A stretch of DNA of 33,540 bases from a virus. Below, one piece after another: positions 2,039-13,275 of the stretch (position 1 is its first letter; every line of letters begins with the position of its first letter). The notes beneath the pieces were generated by a model, which made no database searches, had not been told where the DNA came from, and saw only the letters and a program-made list of their open reading frames with translations. The stretch covers positions 1 through 33,540 of the IMG/VR virus record IMGVR_UViG_3300040977_000097; one strand, 5' to 3'. The position numbers and the translations under genes were made by a program.

Positions 2039-2377
2039 ATGGCTACATTTGAGAGTGAGTTTGATGTCAATGATGAGGTGTTTTTTGATTGTCACAGGTT
2101 TAAGGTTAAAGGGGTTTATTTTGTTAATGGTGAAATAAGCTACAGATTAGAATCTGACACAAGAGTAATGTCCGCGGTAAACGAAGACAAACTAAAGTCA
2201 GCGCCAAAAGAAATGTTTGTGGTTGTAGGCGATCAACCCAGTGGCGAGTTGTCAGTTCTTTCAGCAGTAGTGCTAGAACCAGAAATGACTTTGTCTAAAT
2301 GCAAGCATTCAATATTGGTAGAGCAATATAATAATTTAAGAATAATGAAGCTAATAGAAATTGAGGAGCAAGAATAA
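2039..2377 (+). CDS. Hypothetical protein between exonuclease and ssb (112 aa)
   Basis: The gene sits 8 bases after the exonuclease stop and its TAA shares a base with the ssb ATG. The N-terminal 55 residues look like a small beta barrel, with alternating hydrophobic residues around [18 protein letters not shown], much like small SH3-like phage proteins. The C-terminal third is helical and acidic. No family is recognised. Its position suggests co-expression with the recombination proteins but does not prove a shared function. Confidence 0.75.
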
Positions 2378-2919
2378 TGGCTAGCAAAGGCGTAAATAAA
2401 GTAATTCTAGTTGGGAGCTTAGGGCAGGACCCAGAAATTCGCTATCTTCCAAATGGCGGCGCAGTGGCAAATATTAGCGTTGCAACTAGCGAGAGCTGGA
2501 AAGACAAAAACACAAACCAGATGCAGGAAAAGACCGAATGGCATAAAGTCGCTATTTTTGGCAAGTTAGCTGAGATAGCTGGAGAGTATCTCAAGAAAGG
2601 CTCACAGGTTTACCTTGAAGGTCAATTGCAAACTCGCAAATGGCAAGACCAACAAGGGCAAGATAGATACTCAACAGAGATTGTACTACAAGGATTTAAC
2701 GGGGTAATGCAAATGCTTGGCGGTGCAAGTGGTGGCGGGCAGAATCAAGCTAACGCGCAGCAGGCACCACAACAACAAGCGCAGGGATTCCAGCCGCAAC
2801 AGAAAGCGCAAGGCTTTCAACCTCAGCAACAAGCACCACAACAACAAATGCAGCAGGCTACGCAGCAACCAGGGTTTAACCAGCAGCAGCCCAACCCTAA
2901 TCAATGGAATAGCCAGTAA
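2377..2919 (+). CDS. ssb: Single-stranded DNA-binding protein (SSB)
   Basis: Residues 1 to about 110 form a bacterial-type SSB OB fold: an N-terminal [17 protein letters not shown] strand pair, a [14 protein letters not shown] segment, and [19 protein letters not shown]. It would coat ssDNA during replication and recombination. Residues about 115-180 are a low-complexity Gln/Pro/Asn linker with repeats of QGFQPQQ. The end, NPNQWNSQ, lacks the acidic DDDIPF-type tip that host SSBs use to recruit partner proteins. It overlaps both neighbours by single bases and lies in the erf-exonuclease module. Confidence 0.95.
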
Positions 2920-3131
2920 TGAGAAAAGATAACAGATATGTTTTCGAGCTGCCAAGCGGGAAAATCAAAAACCCACAACTTAAGACGGCTGGTGATGATT
3001 TAATGGTTAATGATGTGGTTAGTATTGACGGTGATATTGTTATGCCAATGTTTGACGAGAGCGTGAAAATGTACGGGGTTGTTGCTGCTAATGCAAAAAA
3101 AGGCGATGAGGTTTTGATAGCGGCAGTGTAA
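2919..3131 (+). CDS. Hypothetical protein after ssb (70 aa)
   Basis: The start overlaps the ssb stop. The protein alternates hydrophobic and polar residues and is probably a small beta-rich fold; a central Asp-rich run (about residues 37-48) and a C-terminal GDEVLIAAV strand are visible. It resembles the small beta-barrel proteins that phages often carry, but I do not recognise a family. It is the last gene before the attC-like array; its stop at 3129-3131 is followed three bases later by the first inverted repeat. Confidence 0.7.
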   Translation: MRKDNRYVFELPSGKIKNPQLKTAGDDLMVNDVVSIDGDIVMPMFDESVKMYGVVAANAKKGDEVLIAAV

Positions 3132-3134
3132 TTG

Positions 3135-3188
3135 GCAGCATGATTGGCGGGTGACTCGCCATGTTTTTTAAGTGCATTGTTATGCTGC
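3135..3188 (+). repeat. Atypical attC-like site at the left edge of the array
   Basis: GCAGCAT at 3135-3141 is the exact reverse complement of ATGCTGC at 3182-3188. The right half has the attC-like order TTTTTTAAGTGCATT then GTTATGC (3179-3185). The left half reads GCATGAT where GCATAAC would be expected, and the inner stem TGGCG/CGCCA is short. It begins three bases after a stop codon, as the full sites do. It may be a degraded or divergent site, or simply a terminator-like hairpin. Confidence 0.4.
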
Positions 3189-3215
3189 AACCATCCGGAA
3201 ATTCCGGATGGTTGC
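3187..3215. repeat. Perfect 14-bp palindrome around a single base
   Basis: GCAACCATCCGGAA (3187-3200) is followed by one A and then its exact reverse complement (3202-3215). Allowing a three-base loop, this forms a 13-bp perfect stem. There is no T-run on the + strand after it, so a simple intrinsic terminator is unlikely. It lies between the atypical attC-like site and a right half site. A regulator operator, replication-related hairpin or insertion remnant are all possible. Confidence 0.6.
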
Positions 3216-3225
3216 CACTAGAAAT

Positions 3226-3248
3226 CTTAATTAAACGCCTTGTTATGT
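3226..3248 (+). repeat. attC-like right half site
   Basis: The sequence TTAATTAAACGCC leads into TTGTTATGTG, matching the right arms of the full sites downstream, with GTTATGT at 3242-3248. No matching ACATAAC left arm is found within about 70 bases upstream. It could be the right end of an original attachment point or the remains of a site broken by rearrangement. Confidence 0.5.
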
Positions 3249-3278
3249 GGCGTGAACACAAATGCGGAAGGTTGCGAA

Positions 3279-3488
3279 ATGAGTAGATATAAAAGAGATT
3301 ACAGGGTTGACGGGTGGCCAGTTGTGGACTTAAAGAATAAAAGAGCGCTAAGTAAAGATGACTTGGTAAGGCGGCTTAATAAATATGAAGATACAGTACG
3401 ATCAACTATCAATTGGATTGAAGAAACTAACGCTTTAAAGGATGAAGATGGCGGAGAGTCCTTGAGGCTATTAAGGGGTCTGGATTAG
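3279..3488 (+). CDS. Cassette ORF 1, hypothetical protein (69 aa)
   Basis: The ATG at 3279 is preceded by GGAAGG at about 3266-3271. The protein is small, charged and mostly helical, with basic residues at the N-terminus (MSRYKRDYR) and acidic ones near the end. Residues about 25-50 (LSKDDLVRRLNKYEDTV) look like an amphipathic or coiled-coil helix. No family is recognised. The stop codon abuts the attC-like site at 3489, and a half site lies just upstream, so this gene plus site resembles one mobile cassette. Confidence 0.6.
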   Translation: MSRYKRDYRVDGWPVVDLKNKRALSKDDLVRRLNKYEDTVRSTINWIEETNALKDEDGGESLRLLRGLD

Positions 3489-3551
3489 ACATATAACCAT
3501 TAAATAATAAGCTTGAGGGACGATAAGTCTTTATTAATTGACTTGTTATGT
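3489..3551 (+). repeat. attC-like site A
   Basis: The left end is ACATATAAC (two extra bases compared with its siblings) and the right end GTTATGT (3545-3551). The arms pair imperfectly: AATAATAA plus CTT on the left against AAG plus TTTATTAATT on the right, with unpaired bases on one side, around a central GAGGGACGAT. It starts directly after the stop of cassette ORF 1. Confidence 0.65.
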
Positions 3552-3575
3552 GGACAACGAACAGAAGAGGTGAAT

Positions 3576-3815
3576 ATGAAATTAAGTATTATAGAAAAGT
3601 TAAATCATGTATTAAATATCAATGGTGACGTAATGACGAGCACAGGTAAAGCCTATATTACAGAGGCTATTAATCAGATTGAAATATTACAAGATACAGA
3701 AGCCAAAATAAGACTAGAGCTTAAAGCTTCAAATGCATTAAATAGAAAGCTAAGAGAGGGTATTGATTACAATGCTGAAACAGGTATGCAGGATGATGAA
3801 TTAAAAGAAACATAA
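3576..3815 (+). CDS. Cassette ORF 2, hypothetical protein (79 aa)
   Basis: The start at 3576 follows AGAGGTG at about 3566-3572. The protein is predicted to be largely alpha-helical: residues about 25-62 form a continuous charged helix (around AINQIEILQDTEAKIRLELK) with heptad-like Ile/Leu spacing, then an acidic end. It resembles the short coiled-coil proteins common in phage accessory regions; no family is recognised. The TAA stop (3813-3815) lies inside the ACATAAC end of the following attC-like site, so gene and site are fused in one compact unit. Confidence 0.65.
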   Translation: MKLSIIEKLNHVLNINGDVMTSTGKAYITEAINQIEILQDTEAKIRLELKASNALNRKLREGIDYNAETGMQDDELKET

Positions 3816-3870
3816 CAAGTAGTTAATAGGTTTTGAGGAACGATAAAATCCTTTTAACGTAGTGTTATCG
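3810..3870 (+). repeat. attC-like site B
   Basis: Ends are ACATAAC (3810-3816) and GTTATCG (3864-3870). The left arm TAGTTAATAGGTTTT pairs with the right arm AAAATCCTTTTAACGTA with one extra base on one side and a small internal mismatch; the central loop is GAGGAACGAT. The pairing, extrahelical base and unpaired central segments are exactly the features of a folded attC hairpin. The central loop closely matches that of site A. Confidence 0.75.
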
Positions 3871-3877
3871 CAGGCAT

Positions 3878-3905
3878 AAAAAAAGCCCTCGGGGATGTGA
3901 GGGCT
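3878..3905 (-). terminator. Rho-independent terminator, acting on the minus strand
   Basis: Read on the minus strand, GCCCTC, an 8-base loop and GAGGGC form a 6-7 bp GC-rich stem followed at once by seven T residues. On the plus strand the A-run precedes the stem and only TAAAAG follows, so it would not end plus-strand transcripts efficiently. In this place it would stop antisense read-through from the late minus-strand genes into the early region. Confidence 0.6.
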
Positions 3906-3960
3906 AAAAGGTGCGTAAATGAAGAGTTTACGAGTTAGAGTATAAACTCAATTTTATTTC
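3906..3960 (+). promoter_or_regulatory. Possible leader-peptide attenuator
   Basis: An 8-codon reading frame (3919-3945, peptide MKSLRVRV) follows an AAGGTG-type ribosome site. It overlaps two hairpins that cannot form together: CGTAAA with TTTACG (3914-3932) and GAGTTTA with TAAACTC (3924-3949). The second is followed by ATTTTATTTC, like a weak plus-strand terminator. The arrangement resembles transcription attenuation, but the stems are AT-rich and this is an inference. Confidence 0.3.
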
Positions 3961-3970
3961 ATTGCAAACC

Positions 3971-4001
3971 TTGACGTTTTTATAATTATAAATAATACTA
4001 T
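3971..4001 (+). promoter_or_regulatory. Candidate sigma-70 promoter inside the long cassette
   Basis: TTGACG (3971-3976) matches five of six -35 bases. Possible -10 elements are AATACT at 3994 (17-base spacing) or TACTAT at 3996 (19-base spacing). The stretch between is very AT-rich. It lies after the hairpins at 3885-3949 and about 20 bases before the next ribosome site, so it could drive the group 4024-5005. Unproven. Confidence 0.4.
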
Positions 4002-4023
4002 AGCTAAGTTAATCGGAGGGTTT

Positions 4024-4110
4024 ATGAAAGATTTAATTATAAATATTGGCGGCTCGTTTTTGTTTGGTTTGTTTCTGTTTGGGTGTATGGCTTTAGTGAG
4101 GCTAGTGTAA
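4024..4110 (+). CDS. Tiny membrane peptide (28 aa)
   Basis: A GGAGG ribosome site at 4015-4019 precedes the ATG closely. The peptide is almost entirely hydrophobic, with one membrane span rich in Gly, Phe and Leu. Its TAA shares a base with the ATG of the next gene at 4110, which supports coupled translation. Function is unknown. The strong ribosome site makes it likely to be real despite its size. Confidence 0.5.
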   Translation: MKDLIINIGGSFLFGLFLFGCMALVRLV

Positions 4111-4289
4111 TGGCTTCTATTAAAATGGTTGTTACGCTAAATTATGATGAGCAGTCTATTCATGGCGGCGATTTGGATAAAGAGGATTTTTTTGACTTGC
4201 TAGGTAAGGATGAATTTCAGCTTTACCATGAAGATTTAGAGGTTATTGGCATGTTAAAGGTTGAGTCTTTAGGTGGTTGTGATGAGTGA
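4110..4289 (+). CDS. Hypothetical acidic protein (59 aa)
   Basis: The start overlaps the preceding stop, and the 3' end overlaps the next gene by 8 bases. The protein starts with a beta-like stretch (IKMVVTLNYDE), has an acidic middle (DLDKEDFFDLLGKDEF), and ends with another strand. No family is recognised. The strong net negative charge is of the kind seen in phage inhibitors that bind host enzymes, but that is only a suggestion from composition. It belongs to the 1.16-kb unit with ninB. Confidence 0.6.
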   Translation: MASIKMVVTLNYDEQSIHGGDLDKEDFFDLLGKDEFQLYHEDLEVIGMLKVESLGGCDE

Positions 4290-4596
4290 TTATACAATTG
4301 ACGAATTAATACTAAAGATTGAAACGATACTAATCAAAGAAAACAATGGCTATACGGTTATGGGTAACGCCTTTGATAATCCAGCCATATTATTAAAGTT
4401 AATTCTTGATTTTAAAATTGAGTTTCAGTTTCCAGATAATGAAACGTTATGGGCCTATGCTTATTGTGAAAATGAGTTTGAAAGAGTGGAATATCAAGCC
4501 GAGTGCACAGATAAGAAAACGGAAACTATAGCTGAGGCGGTTTGTGATTTAGTTGTAAGAAAATACGAGTTTGAGCATGCACAAGAAAATCATTAA
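4282..4596 (+). CDS. Hypothetical phage protein (104 aa)
   Basis: I chose the ATG at 4282; a GTG nine bases upstream is possible. The protein mixes helices and strands. The C-terminal AEAVCDLVVRKYEF segment recalls the small phage proteins with a helix ending in an AIC-A motif (the ABA-sandwich type), but the match is weak. It overlaps both the preceding gene (8 bases) and ninB (20 bases), so translation is probably coupled. Function unknown. Confidence 0.65.
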   Translation: MSDYTIDELILKIETILIKENNGYTVMGNAFDNPAILLKLILDFKIEFQFPDNETLWAYAYCENEFERVEYQAECTDKKTETIAEAVCDLVVRKYEFEHAQENH

Positions 4597-5005
4597 TAAA
4601 GGCAATGTTCGTGACGTTGTTTTGTGGTTAGTGCCTCACTTGATGAGTGAGGTGGCACAAGGCAAGGAAATTGGTATTGAGTTCAAAGAGCTTAAGGCTA
4701 AACGTAGCACAGCTCAAAATCGCTTAATGTGGAAGTGGCATGGCGAGCTTCGTGAGCATATAGAGTCGTGTATTGGTCAGGTTCACGATAATAGCACGAT
4801 ACATGAATTGGTTATATCTTACCTTGGTAATAACAGCGTGATTAATACGGCTGGCGAGGATGTCACGGTAAGGGAGCAGACTAGAAAAATGACCATTAAA
4901 CGGTTTGCTGAGTTTTTAAATAACTACGAGAGATGGGCTAGGGAGCGGTTTAATTGCTGCTTTAGCCATCCTGAAGATTTGTATTGGTCGGCAATGGGTA
5001 GGTAA
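4577..5005 (+). CDS. ninB: NinB-like recombination protein (142 aa)
   Basis: NinB proteins of lambdoid phages bind ssDNA and take part in phage recombination. The family hallmark is present as RSTAQNRLMWKWHGEL (residues 43-58), with the later RKMTIKRFAEFLNNYERWA helix and the terminal HPEDLYW segment in the expected order, and the length matches the family. The start at 4577 is preferred over a TTG six bases upstream. It overlaps the preceding gene, and six or so bases after its stop there is a right half attC-like site. It therefore lies within, and may have been built into, the cassette array. Confidence 0.8.
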   Translation: MHKKIINKGNVRDVVLWLVPHLMSEVAQGKEIGIEFKELKAKRSTAQNRLMWKWHGELREHIESCIGQVHDNSTIHELVISYLGNNSVINTAGEDVTVREQTRKMTIKRFAEFLNNYERWARERFNCCFSHPEDLYWSAMGR

Positions 5006-5028
5006 TCTTTTTGATTGCCTTGTTATGT
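5006..5028 (+). repeat. attC-like right half site after ninB
   Basis: The stretch ending in GATTGCCTTGTTATGTG matches the right arm of site E, with GTTATGT at 5022-5028. Upstream, GGCAAT at 4990-4995 can pair with ATTGCC at 5014-5019, but no ACATAAC-type left end exists because ninB coding sequence occupies that place. Confidence 0.5.
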
Positions 5029-5052
5029 GAAAAGCGAATAGGAGAGGTGATT

Positions 5053-5220
5053 ATGGCTAGATACTTGATAGTAAATAGTAGTGAAAACACAATAGAAAAA
5101 CTTAATGAGTTAGATCGTGTGTTTTTAGATAATATTGATGAGATTATTTTAGAGTGTGAAGTTATTGATATTGTTAAAATGAAATTTTACAGGCCTTGCG
5201 GCTGGTTAGATATAAAATAG
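5053..5220 (+). CDS. Cassette ORF, hypothetical protein (55 aa)
   Basis: The ATG at 5053 follows GGAGAGGTG at 5041-5049. The protein begins with a beta-like MARYLIVNSS, then a helix around IEKLNELDRV, and an acidic DNIDEIILECEVIDIV stretch. No family is recognised. It lies between the right half site after ninB and attC-like site D, so it forms a 252-base cassette-sized unit measured from core to core. Confidence 0.6.
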   Translation: MARYLIVNSSENTIEKLNELDRVFLDNIDEIILECEVIDIVKMKFYRPCGWLDIK

Positions 5221-5222
5221 AA

Positions 5223-5280
5223 ACATAACCTTTTACTTAAACGGCAAGCTTTGCTTGTCCTTTTGAAGTTGTTGTTATGT
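5223..5280 (+). repeat. attC-like site D
   Basis: Ends ACATAAC (5223-5229) and GTTATGT (5274-5280) are exact reverse complements. The arms ACTTAAACGGCAAGC and GCTTGTCCTTTTGAAGT pair with extra unpaired bases on the right arm, leaving a short terminal loop. It starts two bases after the stop of the preceding gene. It is one of the best-formed sites. Confidence 0.78.
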
Positions 5281-5310
5281 GTAAGCTAAATTAATAAATA
5301 GAGGATGATT

Positions 5311-5487
5311 ATGAAAAAGGTATTTAATATAAATATGGAAAGAAGCCAATCTGTAACGATTTGGGAAGATGGCTGTTTATCTACTGAGGCTCAGAACGGT
5401 GACAACCCACAAGTAGATCTTAATGAAGATCAAACAAGGAATGTATACGAGGAGCTACATAAAATTTACGGTGAGAAAGACACATAA
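5311..5487 (+). CDS. Cassette ORF, hypothetical protein (58 aa)
   Basis: I chose the ATG at 5311, six bases after GAGG at 5301-5304, rather than the one at 5305 that touches the ribosome site. The sequence has a beta-like start (KVFNINMERSQSVTIW), an acidic centre, and a C-terminal helix around TRNVYEELHKIY. No family is recognised. Its stop codon (5485-5487) lies inside the ACATAAC end of site E, another sign that gene and site travel as one unit. Confidence 0.6.
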   Translation: MKKVFNINMERSQSVTIWEDGCLSTEAQNGDNPQVDLNEDQTRNVYEELHKIYGEKDT

Positions 5488-5544
5488 CCATTGCAATAAT
5501 AATTTACGAGGCACGAGAAATATTAATTTATTGCCTTGTTATGT
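5482..5544 (+). repeat. attC-like site E
   Basis: Ends CACATAAC and GTTATGTG (5481-5545 when the extra pair is counted) are perfect reverse complements. Inner arms TGCAATAATAATTT and ATATTAATTTATTGCC pair imperfectly with unpaired bases, around a GAGGCACGAG centre that resembles those of sites A and B. The stop of the preceding gene is within the left end. Confidence 0.75.
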
Positions 5545-5568
5545 GAACAGCGAATGAGGAATTTAGAA

Positions 5569-5844
5569 ATGGCAAAAAAACTTCTTGAGGGTCTAAGTGA
5601 AAGATTACCTCCTAAGACTTTCCCGTGTTTCTTAACATTAAGAAATAACGAAATTAAAATAGCCAGTAAAGAGCATTATGATTATTTAAATGAGGTTGCT
5701 GATAAACTGTATCAAGAATTTTACGGCTATATATCTAAGCCTAAATTTGATTATTTTTGCTCATCACATCCGCAAGAGTCAAATTGCTTTTGTGTAGCAT
5801 TGATAATGGACGACTGGTGTGATCAGCATGATTTTAACAATTAA
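5569..5844 (+). CDS. Cassette ORF, hypothetical protein (91 aa)
   Basis: The ATG at 5569 follows GAGGA at 5556-5560. The protein opens with a basic helix and a Pro-rich turn (RLPPKTFPCF), then a Tyr-rich helix (around HYDYLNEVADKLYQEFYGY), and ends in a Cys/Asp-rich part with CSS-HPQESNCFC and DDWCDQHD. The four cysteines and two histidines near the end could bind metal, but the spacing does not match a known finger that I recognise. The 362-base unit ends at site F. Confidence 0.62.
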   Translation: MAKKLLEGLSERLPPKTFPCFLTLRNNEIKIASKEHYDYLNEVADKLYQEFYGYISKPKFDYFCSSHPQESNCFCVALIMDDWCDQHDFNN

Positions 5845-5848
5845 CGAA

Positions 5849-5906
5849 ACATAACCTTTGCGCTAAGCGGCAAGCTTGCGCAGTCCGATTAAGTGCGTTG
5901 TTATGT
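5849..5906 (+). repeat. attC-like site F
   Basis: Ends ACATAAC (5849-5855) and GTTATGT (5900-5906) match exactly. The arms GCGCTAAGCGGC and AGTCCGATTAAGTGCG pair with two or three unpaired bases, with an AAGCTTGCGC centre. It has the same length (58 bases) and similar inner sequence as site D (CGGCAAGC and GTCC). Confidence 0.78.
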
Positions 5907-5936
5907 CCGTACTTACGATTAACTAAGGAGTTTATT

Positions 5937-6152
5937 TTGAAAAGATTAACAGCCCAAGGGCAATTAAAGGATGGCGATAAAATAATTATTATTGGAAAGT
6001 CACCAAAAGACGACCAGAAAGCAAAGGTGAAACTAGTTTTTGACAACGAAGGTATAGAAGAAATAATTATTGACAGAAAGAAAAACAGATACTTTATAAC
6101 GCACATGGTTGTTAGTGGTAGTTCATGGGCGCAAACCGTGCTTATTGAGTAA
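5937..6152 (+). CDS. Cassette ORF, hypothetical protein (71 aa)
   Basis: The start is a TTG at 5937, chosen because AAGGAG sits six bases upstream (5925-5930); an earlier TTG lies inside site F. The protein looks all-beta: KDGDKIIIIGKSP, then AKVKLVFDNEGIEEIIID and RYFITHMVVSG strands, typical of a small barrel. No family is recognised. The stop comes four bases before site G, giving a 314-base unit. Confidence 0.62.
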   Translation: MKRLTAQGQLKDGDKIIIIGKSPKDDQKAKVKLVFDNEGIEEIIIDRKKNRYFITHMVVSGSSWAQTVLIE

Positions 6153-6156
6153 GTAC

Positions 6157-6220
6157 ACATAACATGGTAGTTAAACGGCGGCGAGCATTAGCGAGCTGTC
6201 CGATTAACGTAGTGTTATGT
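6157..6220 (+). repeat. attC-like site G
   Basis: Ends ACATAAC (6157-6163) and GTTATGT (6214-6220) match exactly. The arms TAGTTAAACGGCGGCGAGC and GCGAGCTGTCCGATTAACGTA pair with extrahelical bases, leaving a short ATTA loop. The TTAACGTAGTGTTAT right arm is almost identical to that of site B. It is the last site; none follows the next gene. Confidence 0.8.
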
Positions 6221-6240
6221 TAACTCAGAAGGTGATTAAA

Positions 6241-6444
6241 ATGATTATGGAATATGAGAAAGAGTATAGAAAAATTAATAGCCCGATAGTCTTCACAACC
6301 AGAAAAACAGAAAAAGAATTACTAAAAAGTAATATTATTTACGGTGTTGAGTTATTAGGTGTTCTAATGTCGTTTATGTTTGTTGTGTGGGTACTTGGGC
6401 CACGTAGCGGTGATTTTATTAACTGGGTGCAGGCTGTGTTATGA
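6241..6444 (+). CDS. Small membrane protein before ninG (67 aa)
   Basis: The ATG at 6241 follows AGAAGGTG at about 6227-6234. The N-terminal half is charged and cytoplasmic in character. A single membrane helix lies at about residues 33-53 (IIYGVELLGVLMSFMFVVWV), then a short hydrophilic tail. The last bases overlap the ninG start by four. No family is recognised. It follows the last attC-like site but has no site of its own, so it may be a resident phage gene. Confidence 0.65.
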   Translation: MIMEYEKEYRKINSPIVFTTRKTEKELLKSNIIYGVELLGVLMSFMFVVWVLGPRSGDFINWVQAVL

Positions 6445-7019
6445 AGAGTAAGAAGTGTAAGTTTTGCGGCAATGAGTTTAAGCAGGCCAGACCAATGCAA
6501 AACGTTTGCAGCCCAGATTGCGCCTATAAGCTCGTTGAGCAAAAGAATATAAAGAAAGCCGCTAAAGCCATCAAGGATAAAGAGAAGGAGCTTAGAAAGC
6601 ACCTGAAAGAGTCTAAGGAGAAATTAAAGACCAAGGGCCAGTTAGCCAAAGAAGCGCAGGTGGCTTTTAATAAATACGTTAGATTGAGAGATAAAGATTT
6701 GCCATGTATAAGCTGCGGGCGTCATCACCAAGGGCAGTATCACGCGGGGCATTATCGCAGTGTCGGCAGTTCACCGCATTTAAGGTTTAACTTGTGGAAC
6801 GTGCATCTCCAGTGTCAGCCCTGCAATGTGCATTTAAGCGGCAATCTAATAAACTACAGAATGAACTTAATTAAAAAGATAGGGCAAGAAAAAGTTGACT
6901 GGATTGAATCAGCCAGCTTTAGCAATAAATATTCCGAGGAATATTTGAGAAGGGTTAAGCTGGTTTTTGGTGTAAAATTTAATTTATTAAGGCGGCGTTA
7001 TGGATCTGGCGCCGCCTAG
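6441..7019 (+). CDS. ninG: NinG (Rap-like) recombination endonuclease (192 aa)
   Basis: NinG of lambda (Rap) is a structure-specific nuclease that cuts branched recombination intermediates such as D-loops and Holliday junctions. The expected features are present: an N-terminal zinc knuckle (Cys6, Cys9, Cys23, Cys27), a Lys/Glu-rich helical linker (about 35-75), and an HNH-like zinc domain with CISC (89-92), HAGHY (101-105), and CQPCNVH (125-131). Length and domain order match the family. It is the last plus-strand gene, converging with the late genes 18 bases away, and is adjacent to the attC-like array. Confidence 0.9.
   Translation: MKSKKCKFCGNEFKQARPMQNVCSPDCAYKLVEQKNIKKAAKAIKDKEKELRKHLKESKEKLKTKGQLAKEAQVAFNKYVRLRDKDLPCISCGRHHQGQYHAGHYRSVGSSPHLRFNLWNVHLQCQPCNVHLSGNLINYRMNLIKKIGQEKVDWIESASFSNKYSEEYLRRVKLVFGVKFNLLRRRYGSGAA
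6991..7016. terminator. Hairpin at the convergent gene junction
   Basis: GGCGGCG (6991-6997) pairs with CGCCGCC (7010-7016) across a 12-base loop, giving a 7-bp GC stem that contains the end of ninG. There is no T-run on the plus strand; on the minus strand TTAATAAATTAAATTTT follows, weakly U-rich. It could act mainly to end late transcripts entering the early block. Confidence 0.35.
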
Positions 7020-11159: not shown

Positions 11160-13275
11160 TTTTTTCTGTTCCTACTGTTGAGACACTACCCAAAAATAAA
11201 GCCGTTGCAAGTTCAGGGTATTGACTCTTGAACTGCTGAAAGTTTTGTTTTAGCACTGGACTTGCTTGAAGCGCTTTCTTAAGTCTACGCTGTTGTGCTC
11301 GTTTTTTCATCTGTCCAGCTGCACTATCTAAAGCCTGCGCAGCCATCCAACCCTGAACGCCACCCATTGCAGTGAATAATCTATTCATGTCTGGGCTGCT
11401 CTTTAGTGCGTTAAGCATGTCGTCTGCTGTCCCGCTAGCCTGCGCTATCTGGTCAAACGGTATTTTAAGCTCGCCAGCTTCACGTATTTTATTGATGGCC
11501 TTTAGTGCCTTGGGGTTATTTTTAAAAACAACCTGCATTTTTTCATCACCAATCTTATTAAGTCTATTTATAAAATTAGTTCCCGACCAATCACGAACGC
11601 CACCTTCAAGTTTTCCGCTTGTTCTTTTTAAGGCTGAGTTCATTAAATCCATAACCACTGAGGACTGTAAAGAGCCTAATGCTTTTTTACCTGCATCGCC
11701 TGACTTCATTAGCGAGTCAACAACTTTACTAACATCACTAACTGCACCGGCTTTAGAGGACGATAAAAGCGTATTTATAACATGCTCATCAAGTATTAAA
11801 TCACGATCAAAAGTGCCTTTCTTTTTGCTTGTTAGCTTTTGGACTAAATCACCAGCGCTAAACTCGCCTTTAAAGTCTTTGAATTCGTTAATGGCTCTTA
11901 GTGCTGCGTTGGCTGAGTCGAGAGATTTATTACCAAGTGCGCCGCGCTCCGAATTACTCATTGATTCAAGCGAATCTTTAACGGCCTCAACTTCCTTTTT
12001 AACTCCGTCTTTCAATTTACCAACTACCGCACGAATGCCAGGTGGTGAATCAAAGCTAAGCATGGCATTTAAATCTTTTGTTAAGTTGCTGTGATTTAAA
12101 ATGTTTAACGGGGTTATCTCGGATTTGACCGGTAAAAAACTGCCTTCTGCGGTCTTGGCTGCTTTATCCATCCATGCCGCTCTGGCCGCTGGGTCTTGGT
12201 TTACTCCGTATTCAGTCATTAAATCGTTTAGCTGTGTTTTCTCTGCTGTCGTGATTTGCTTCATCATGTCAGCGAATGCTTTATCATTATTAACCGTGTC
12301 GATTAGGTTTTGACCACTAAGCGGAATGCCTTCACCTTCACTTAAAGTGCCAAGCTCCTTGTAAGCCTCGTTTACGCTTTGTTTTGTTTGTTTATACCTA
12401 GACTCTAAAGCATCCTTAATTAAAGCGCCAGACTCTTCAGGTATACCCAATTCATCAGCTAGCTTTTGTGTTGTCTCTCTAAATGATGCTGATTCGTCAG
12501 ATAGTCTTTCGCGCAGCTTGCTAGCAATGTCTGATTCTGCATCTCGGTTTAATCTTCGCTCTGTTAGAAAATCAATGGGCTGTTGAGTTATTCGACTCTC
12601 TACCGTTGGGATGTTTAGTTCTTCAAAAAGCGCCTGCCTTCTTAATTGCTCAACGTCTGAAGCTTCAAAACCCTGCGGTATTGGTTGAGTTGAGTCACCC
12701 GCTAGCTGCTGCCTTTGTGCTGCTTGTTCTTGGCCCCTTCTTGCTGTGCCTGCGCCAACTCTACGAGCGCCGCCAAACCCCATCCTCTCAAGTGCTGCTG
12801 TTGGTAGAGTTGTGGCTAATGCCGCTGCCGTTGGTGAGCCTGTTAAGTCCATTGTTGTATCACCTAAAAACCTTTCGCTTGCCTGAAGTCCTTCCGCTAA
12901 TGGCTGTACAACCTGCTGAGCTCCACGCATAGCGCCTTGCCCTGCTTCTGTTCTTGGTTGGTATGTTAGCATGTCTCTAGTGCCTTGAACCCAATCAGCG
13001 CCTTGACCTTGCTCACCAGGTAGTATTGTTCCGGCCATGCCAGCAAGTCCTGCAAGTGGCTCAGCAACGGCAGAGCTAACAAGCCCTAAACCAGCCTCGC
13101 CAGCGCCTAGTATTGTTTCACCTATACCTTGCTTTGGTTGCGCTTCAGCTAGAAGGTTTGAATAGTCGCTCTCTTGCATTTCTTTTATTTTATTTGCAAA
13201 GAGTTGCGCGGCTTCTTTATCGCCTTTTGCGTCGGCTTGCATTAGTGCTGATTTGTATTGTTCAATGGTAGCCAT
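11152..13275 (-). CDS. P22 gp16-like DNA ejection protein (707 aa)
   Basis: It is the third of three consecutive ejection-type genes, in the position of P22 gene 16. The N-terminus (IEQYKSALMQADAKGDKEAAQLFANKI) is typical of phage internal virion proteins. Next comes a Gly/Ala-rich hydrophobic part (about 50-170) that could insert into the membrane, and then long charged helices. Such proteins leave the capsid with the DNA and help form a channel across the cell envelope. No lytic transglycosylase motif was seen. The function call rests on gene order and composition, not on close sequence identity. Confidence 0.6.
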   Translation of the reverse strand: MATIEQYKSALMQADAKGDKEAAQLFANKIKEMQESDYSNLLAEAQPKQGIGETILGAGEAGLGLVSSAVAEPLAGLAGMAGTILPGEQGQGADWVQGTRDMLTYQPRTEAGQGAMRGAQQVVQPLAEGLQASERFLGDTTMDLTGSPTAAALATTLPTAALERMGFGGARRVGAGTARRGQEQAAQRQQLAGDSTQPIPQGFEASDVEQLRRQALFEELNIPTVESRITQQPIDFLTERRLNRDAESDIASKLRERLSDESASFRETTQKLADELGIPEESGALIKDALESRYKQTKQSVNEAYKELGTLSEGEGIPLSGQNLIDTVNNDKAFADMMKQITTAEKTQLNDLMTEYGVNQDPAARAAWMDKAAKTAEGSFLPVKSEITPLNILNHSNLTKDLNAMLSFDSPPGIRAVVGKLKDGVKKEVEAVKDSLESMSNSERGALGNKSLDSANAALRAINEFKDFKGEFSAGDLVQKLTSKKKGTFDRDLILDEHVINTLLSSSKAGAVSDVSKVVDSLMKSGDAGKKALGSLQSSVVMDLMNSALKRTSGKLEGGVRDWSGTNFINRLNKIGDEKMQVVFKNNPKALKAINKIREAGELKIPFDQIAQASGTADDMLNALKSSPDMNRLFTAMGGVQGWMAAQALDSAAGQMKKRAQQRRLKKALQASPVLKQNFQQFKSQYPELATALFLGSVSTVGTEKND

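Follow-up and report, generated by a model that had tools for sequence, protein, structure and literature searches.

What are the imperfect inverted repeats that separate small plus-strand genes within positions 3120-6220 of the IMG/VR virus record IMGVR_UViG_3300040977_000097 (33,540 bases, analyzed at full length and hereafter called the window), and how could the genes between them be exchanged? An earlier note, made from the sequence alone, had read the region as an integron-like cassette array inside the early region of a phage. We find that sites C, F, G and H of the window (Table 1) are attC sites, that they stand reversed relative to the genes, that the record carries no recombinase of the relevant family and that related viral arrays share units whose edges lie at the core box. 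It is quite probable that the region represents a pair of short phage gene-cassette arrays with genuine attC sites, in which inverted units, each made of an attC and the gene downstream of it, are exchanged by a host integrase.

Six full attC-like sites with both boxes and three right-arm-only half-sites lie between the small genes, the ends of the sites being ACATAAC-type and GTTATGT-type boxes. All six full repeats described in the earlier note (C, D, F, G, H and I) were located, and a scanner for complementary boxes with inner arms gave five matches in 3000-6500 versus a shuffle mean of 0.22 (maximum 1), and none over the remaining 30 kb of the window. The imperfect inverted repeat, the R''/R' boxes (AAC ... 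GTT) and the inner L''/L' arms of attC are all present, as are the unpaired features that specify a strand: the note had pointed to unpaired bases on one side, and arm alignments place these extra bases where class 1 sites have them. Its caveat that the ends depart from the RYYYAAC/GTTRRRY consensus proved unfounded; ACATAAC, ATATAAC and GCATAAC also occur in the attC of Vibrio integrons.

The identity of the sites was examined with two covariance models, whose E-values are rough. The first, R1, was built from bacterial integron attC only (sites from MK672802, an integron piece of Vibrio anguillarum, and from MZ568829, with integrons of Shewanella) and was run on the 33.5 kb window with filters off. 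It recovered H, C, F and G at E 5.6e-5 to 3.4e-3, with the next best match at E 1.1, and the covariance-model check proposed in the note thus came out in favor of attC. The second, R2, was trained on the viral sites that R1 had found and scored C, F, G and H at 44-53 bits and I at 24.7 bits; the former four belong to its training set, so that the R1 scores alone count as independent evidence for them. R2 gave matches in 28 of 299 Pseudomonadota genomes, and the 17 regions around its bacterial matches include long chromosomal integron arrays. Among the R2-matching genomes checked, 11 of 14 had an integron integrase above the curated cut-off, and no match was obtained in ten related phage or phage-like plasmid regions (167 kb) that served as a negative control. 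Because the bacterial model finds the window sites and the phage model finds bacterial integron arrays, the window sites are attC. Base pairing, moreover, covaries in the bacterial and in the viral site sets, and shifting the pairing abolishes this covariation, with the viral alignment having been fitted to the structure and hence being biased towards it. A plain pattern scan for ACATAAC...TTGTTATGTG was dominated by a conserved 62-nt stretch, present in many contigs, lacking the attC arm pattern and apparently coding, and was discarded; another, for ACATAACAACGC...GGTTATGT, covered 84,980 species of bacteria and archaea and yielded seven matches and no arrays, which were taken as chance.

The sites could in principle be intercistronic RNA hairpins, acting in processing, stability or translation and convergent on the look of attC. 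They are placed between stop codon and Shine-Dalgarno sequence in an early operon and keep a fixed direction relative to transcription, as such hairpins would. However, the layout of box, spacer and extrahelical bases is detected by a model of bacterial integrons, the phage model detects chromosomal integrons in return, an Rfam scan of the window gave no match and, according to Qi et al. (2023; PMC9892861), sites of phage PH101 work with IntI1. We therefore hold this explanation to be most improbable.

The arms of an attC site are asymmetric, and the strand to be recombined is set by the extra (extrahelical) bases in one arm. The longer arm adjoins the stop codon of the upstream gene in class 1 integrons, an arrangement with which the Vibrio and Shewanella controls agree. 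The window, whose cassette genes are read from the plus strand, has the longer arm on the opposite side, and R1 scored C, F, G and H at 20-26 bits on the minus strand versus about 8 bits or less on the plus strand, a strand difference that also bears out the unpaired bases. The arrangement of a canonical cassette, with an attC of canonical polarity after the stop codon, is found at none of the four. The earlier note had all sites pointing in one direction, which holds insofar as these four share the minus strand; that direction is, however, the reverse of the genes, and the ambiguous D and the near-symmetric I are too degenerate for a firm polarity.

This reversal is common to viral arrays. 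When polarity was counted from the strand of the gene between neighboring sites, with one caller for bacterial and viral arrays, the attC ran with the gene in 135 and against it in 9 of 144 cassettes from bacterial chromosomal arrays, whereas in viral arrays it ran against the gene in 64 of 67 cassettes and with it in 3 (Fisher p 4e-40, treating the cassettes of one array as independent). The three viral exceptions comprise phage TJE1, which is of truly ordinary polarity, one near tie and one interval in phage PH101, where the annotated gene is actually opposite to the attC. At the level of contigs, all bacterial regions lean towards the same direction, and all viral contigs with a gene call except TJE1 lean towards the opposite one. 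A second viral sample, seeded with other boxes (GCCTAAC and ATATAAC), gave 17 opposite and 2 same, and reversed polarity was seen in all in the window and some twenty other viral sequences. The pattern is not an effect of ascertainment, because the pattern scans span both strands and ignore genes. The published array of the isolated phage H101/PH101 (L199, record positions 75919-77987) is likewise inverted, its attC sites being on the plus strand and the surrounding annotated genes on the minus strand. With the attC reversed relative to the gene, the recombinogenic 'bottom' strand is the coding strand.

These counts bear on the simplest account of the region, that of an ordinary cluster of attC sites lacking integrase (CALIN), in which bacterial cassettes of normal polarity were taken from a host integron, as in prophages of Vibrio anguillarum and Shewanella. 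Phage CALINs and integron pieces are known (PMC9892861), and our loci L294 and L295 do have normal polarity. Against this stand the reversed polarity in nearly all viral cassettes, which contradicts such an origin for the present set also through the bacterial contrast and the second sample, and the result that, in a small sample, none of 66 phage cassette proteins matched 39 bacterial loci around integrons. This account is thus very improbable.

The preferred explanation, reversed cassette arrays served by a host integrase, predicts a movable unit composed of one attC and its downstream gene, about 250-370 bp long. In two otherwise different phages, contigs G003 and G004, a stretch of 298 bp is shared at 92% from box to box; it holds one attC and one gene of 73 amino acids (aa), and the flank upstream of it is unrelated. 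More generally, near-identical sites at different places never have a common upstream flank (in gene sense) when 90 nt are compared (identity 0.43-0.55), but some have a common downstream one (0.91 for G003/G004, 0.78 within PH101 and 0.61 for G003/G361). In contig G363, a 349-bp unit of site and gene separates a methyltransferase gene end from the site that comes directly after this gene in G003, and looks inserted at the box. Three phages share the end of the gene as far as ACATAACC (one has ATATAACC), and this common stretch continues through the box and is followed by three different sites. Of 66 phage cassette genes, 46 end with the TAA that belongs to the box. Unit edges at the box, shared downstream flanks and gene stops within the box all fit cutting at ACATAA|C, the upstream edge of each attC in gene sense and the canonical R' position (G|TTATGT on the other strand) of an inverted attC. 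The check proposed in the earlier note, gain or loss of whole units between cores, thus has positive cases among related viral arrays, where units bounded by the core box are shared (G003/G004) or apparently inserted (G003/G363), although none of them is a unit of the window. NinB and the exonuclease, used as baits, brought up no close relative of the window, or one contig without the array, and no close relatives of contig G003 or of PH101 that could show recent gain or loss were found.

It is possible, though unlikely, that the sites are instead linkers for homologous recombination, in which phage annealing recombinases swap modules and the attC fold is merely inherited, with no integrase acting. 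The phage codes for Erf, NinG and NinB, and of the 22 pairs of near-identical sites roughly half match in the site alone and on neither side of it, an outcome that simple unit transfer does not predict. Linkers, however, require sequence identity, and the sites within an array mostly differ while the hairpin and the unpaired bases are kept, with covariation; the clean edges of single units also coincide with the attC cut position. Homologous exchange through the sites is plausible as a second route beside integrase-mediated exchange. Sites of 95-100% identity with different neighboring genes were seen in the pairs G001 15152/G360 3186, G003 34377/G011 34375 and G003 30021/G361 9577. Moron and linker mosaicism is familiar from phages, with boundary sequences in the lambdoid group, and there too early regions exchange small accessory genes one at a time; unlike those boundaries, the joints of the viral arrays are attC sites that have a structure and a fixed point of cutting.

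As to the enzyme, the absence of an integron integrase claimed by the note was confirmed: the record contains no tyrosine recombinase (PF00589), nor do 18 of the 19 array-bearing records, and no integron integrase was found in the 12 of 12 tested. The region has the make-up of a CALIN, two or more attC sites spaced over a few kb with no intI, rather than that of an integron, which would have an intI gene and an attI site; no attI was identified in the window, where half-site E consists of a right arm only. The one array-bearing viral contig with tyrosine recombinases, G364 (L284), has two, at 235-729 and 12388-12858. Since nearly all the phage records lack a recombinase, the simplest explanation is that a host integron supplies the enzyme in trans, and mobilization of the array units by a host integron integrase is the likely, predicted mechanism. 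In PMC9892861, IntI1 recombined attC sites called by model-based predictors in E. coli, two sites of PH101, whose array is inverted, among them, and the bottom strand did better than the top one. On the bacterial side, the genome class reached first has IntI and few sites close to the window type. In the class of genome G014, an integron integrase above cut-off was present in 105 of 346 genomes, several with more than one copy. Four bacterial chromosomal loci with such attC sites or arrays (L329, L330, L340 and L342; genomes G523, G617 and G394) occur without an integron integrase above cut-off.

Units would most probably be exchanged during infection, when a phage without a recombinase meets the integron integrase of an integron-carrying host. 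A broader proposal, to which we give an even chance, is that phages of integron-carrying marine gammaproteobacteria keep a reversed cassette pool of their own, which host integrases shuffle during infection and which the reversal separates functionally from the bacterial integron pool. attC sites fold more readily if their recombinogenic strand belongs to the lagging-strand template (PMC5371416, PMC8946536), and we infer that the inversion may serve such folding. GC skew is positive on the plus strand across the array; it tracks gene direction, so that the direction of replication is not shown by it. Besides the site pairs that share neither flank, several points weigh against exchange of reversed units by a host integrase. 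The known phage TJE1 has attC of ordinary polarity; for the metagenomic contigs, gene strands were computed by a simple caller from open reading frames (ORFs) and Shine-Dalgarno sequences rather than curated; viral contigs may be fragments, so that the absence of a recombinase is not final; and D, I and the half-sites are degenerate, so that the window array may be partly fossil.

An attC array in a phage, which the note considered unusual, is upheld by R1, covariation, R2 and the shared units, but integrase-less attC clusters in phages have been reported before (Qi et al., 2023; PMC9892861). That report describes CALINs in the virulent Pseudoalteromonas phage PH101/H101, Tetrasphaera phage TJE1 and Polaribacter phage P12002L, with small genes of unknown function and DNA methyltransferases as cargo, as here, and with sites usable by IntI1. 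Its text is silent on polarity relative to genes, which we find reversed in almost every viral array, that of PH101 among them, with a unit made of attC and downstream gene, and the window array differs from those phages in belonging to an F116-like podovirus known as a metagenomic record. The viral sites are of the same attC family as those of the sedentary chromosomal integrons of Vibrio and Shewanella, with like boxes, short spacers and extrahelical bases and with models that cross-recognize; unlike those integrons, viral arrays are short, lack intI and attI, have sites mostly of 55-90 nt and run opposite to the genes. No earlier report of reversed polarity was found in the accessible literature, a search that left out subscription papers, preprints and supplements, and the reversal thus appears to be the new part. 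The structure of attC, by setting which strand is used, is held to ensure that captured genes face the integron promoter (PMC8946536), a rule that the viral cassette pool systematically reverses. The arrays suggest that phages use host integrases for modular gene exchange without carrying one, and it becomes directly testable what the orientation of attC towards gene, transcription and replication means for selection. Most viral cassette proteins have no known function, two N6/N4 methyltransferases and an ASCH domain being the notable ones, and the cassettes are a source of accessory, possibly anti-restriction functions.

The phage is a marine one, its terminase is nearest to those of F116-like Pseudomonas podoviruses (61-62% identity), and the left region of the record codes for Erf, Ssb, NinB and NinG. 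The phage flanks named in the note, ssb and ninG, were both recovered (Table 1). Its core-to-core distance of about 250-360 bases agrees with the 259-367 nt measured within groups, but the array is not continuous: an ordinary 1.1 kb block with NinB divides the sites into groups at 3150-3871 and 5008-6220. The small plus-strand genes between the sites belong to no known PHROGs family.

Table 1. Features of the array region and its flanks, in window coordinates.
Feature	Positions	Strand	Basis or remark
ssb, phage core, left flank of array	2377-2919	+	blastn vs Vibrio phage ssb genes, 72-76% identity
Half-site A, GTTATGC box on right arm, left arm degenerate	~3150-3186	-	sequence, D1 repeat family
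Terminator-like hairpin between half-sites A and B	3187-3215	n/a	repeat analysis; perfect 14-bp inverted repeat
Half-site B, right arm only	~3216-3249	-	repeat analysis, contig G012 comparison
Cassette-type gene 1, 69 aa	3279-3488	+	ORF; PHROGs none
attC site C, minus strand gives canonical polarity	3491-3551	-	R1 23.7 bits, E 2.5e-4; R2 53.1 bits
Cassette gene 2, 79 aa, stop is TAA of following ACATAA box	3576-3815	+	ORF
attC-like site D, polarity ambiguous	3810-3871	none assigned	R2 18.1 bits on +, 10.7 bits on -
NinB/Orf recombination mediator, non-cassette block separating both site groups	4571-5005	+	PHROG 72, E 4.2e-22
Half-site E, right arm only, opens second group	5008-5029	-	sequence, D2 repeat
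Cassette-type gene 3, 55 aa	5053-5220	+	ORF, PHROGs search
attC site F, extrahelical base and unpaired spacers	5223-5280	-	R1 23.4 bits, E 3.1e-4; DNA fold z -4.0
Cassette gene 4, 58 aa, stop inside following box	5311-5487	+	ORF
attC site G	5482-5544	-	R1 19.9 bits, E 3.4e-3; R2 47.8 bits
Cassette gene 5, 91 aa	5569-5844	+	ORF, PHROGs search
attC site H	5849-5906	-	R1 26.0 bits, E 5.6e-5; R2 50.0 bits
Cassette gene 6, 71 aa	5937-6152	+	homologues on plasmids
attC site I, weak, nearly symmetric	6157-6220	-	R2 24.7 bits on -, 19.1 bits on +
Last small gene, 75 aa, without closing site after it	6217-6444	+	ORF
NinG/Rap junction endonuclease, phage core, right flank	6441-7019	+	PHROG 171, E 1.2e-85

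Homologues of cassette gene 6 (54-57% identity) occur on a phage-like plasmid of Vibrio alginolyticus and on an Aeromonas plasmid, with no attC site nearby in either. Two sites of the first group have counterparts in contig G012: positions 3217-3263 (half-site B) are 94% identical to the matching part of a complete site there, and site D is 92% identical to a site of the same contig. A terminator-like hairpin, GCCCTC...GAGGGC, lies at 3875-3904 directly after site D, and this hairpin and the one between half-sites A and B are both located at array borders.

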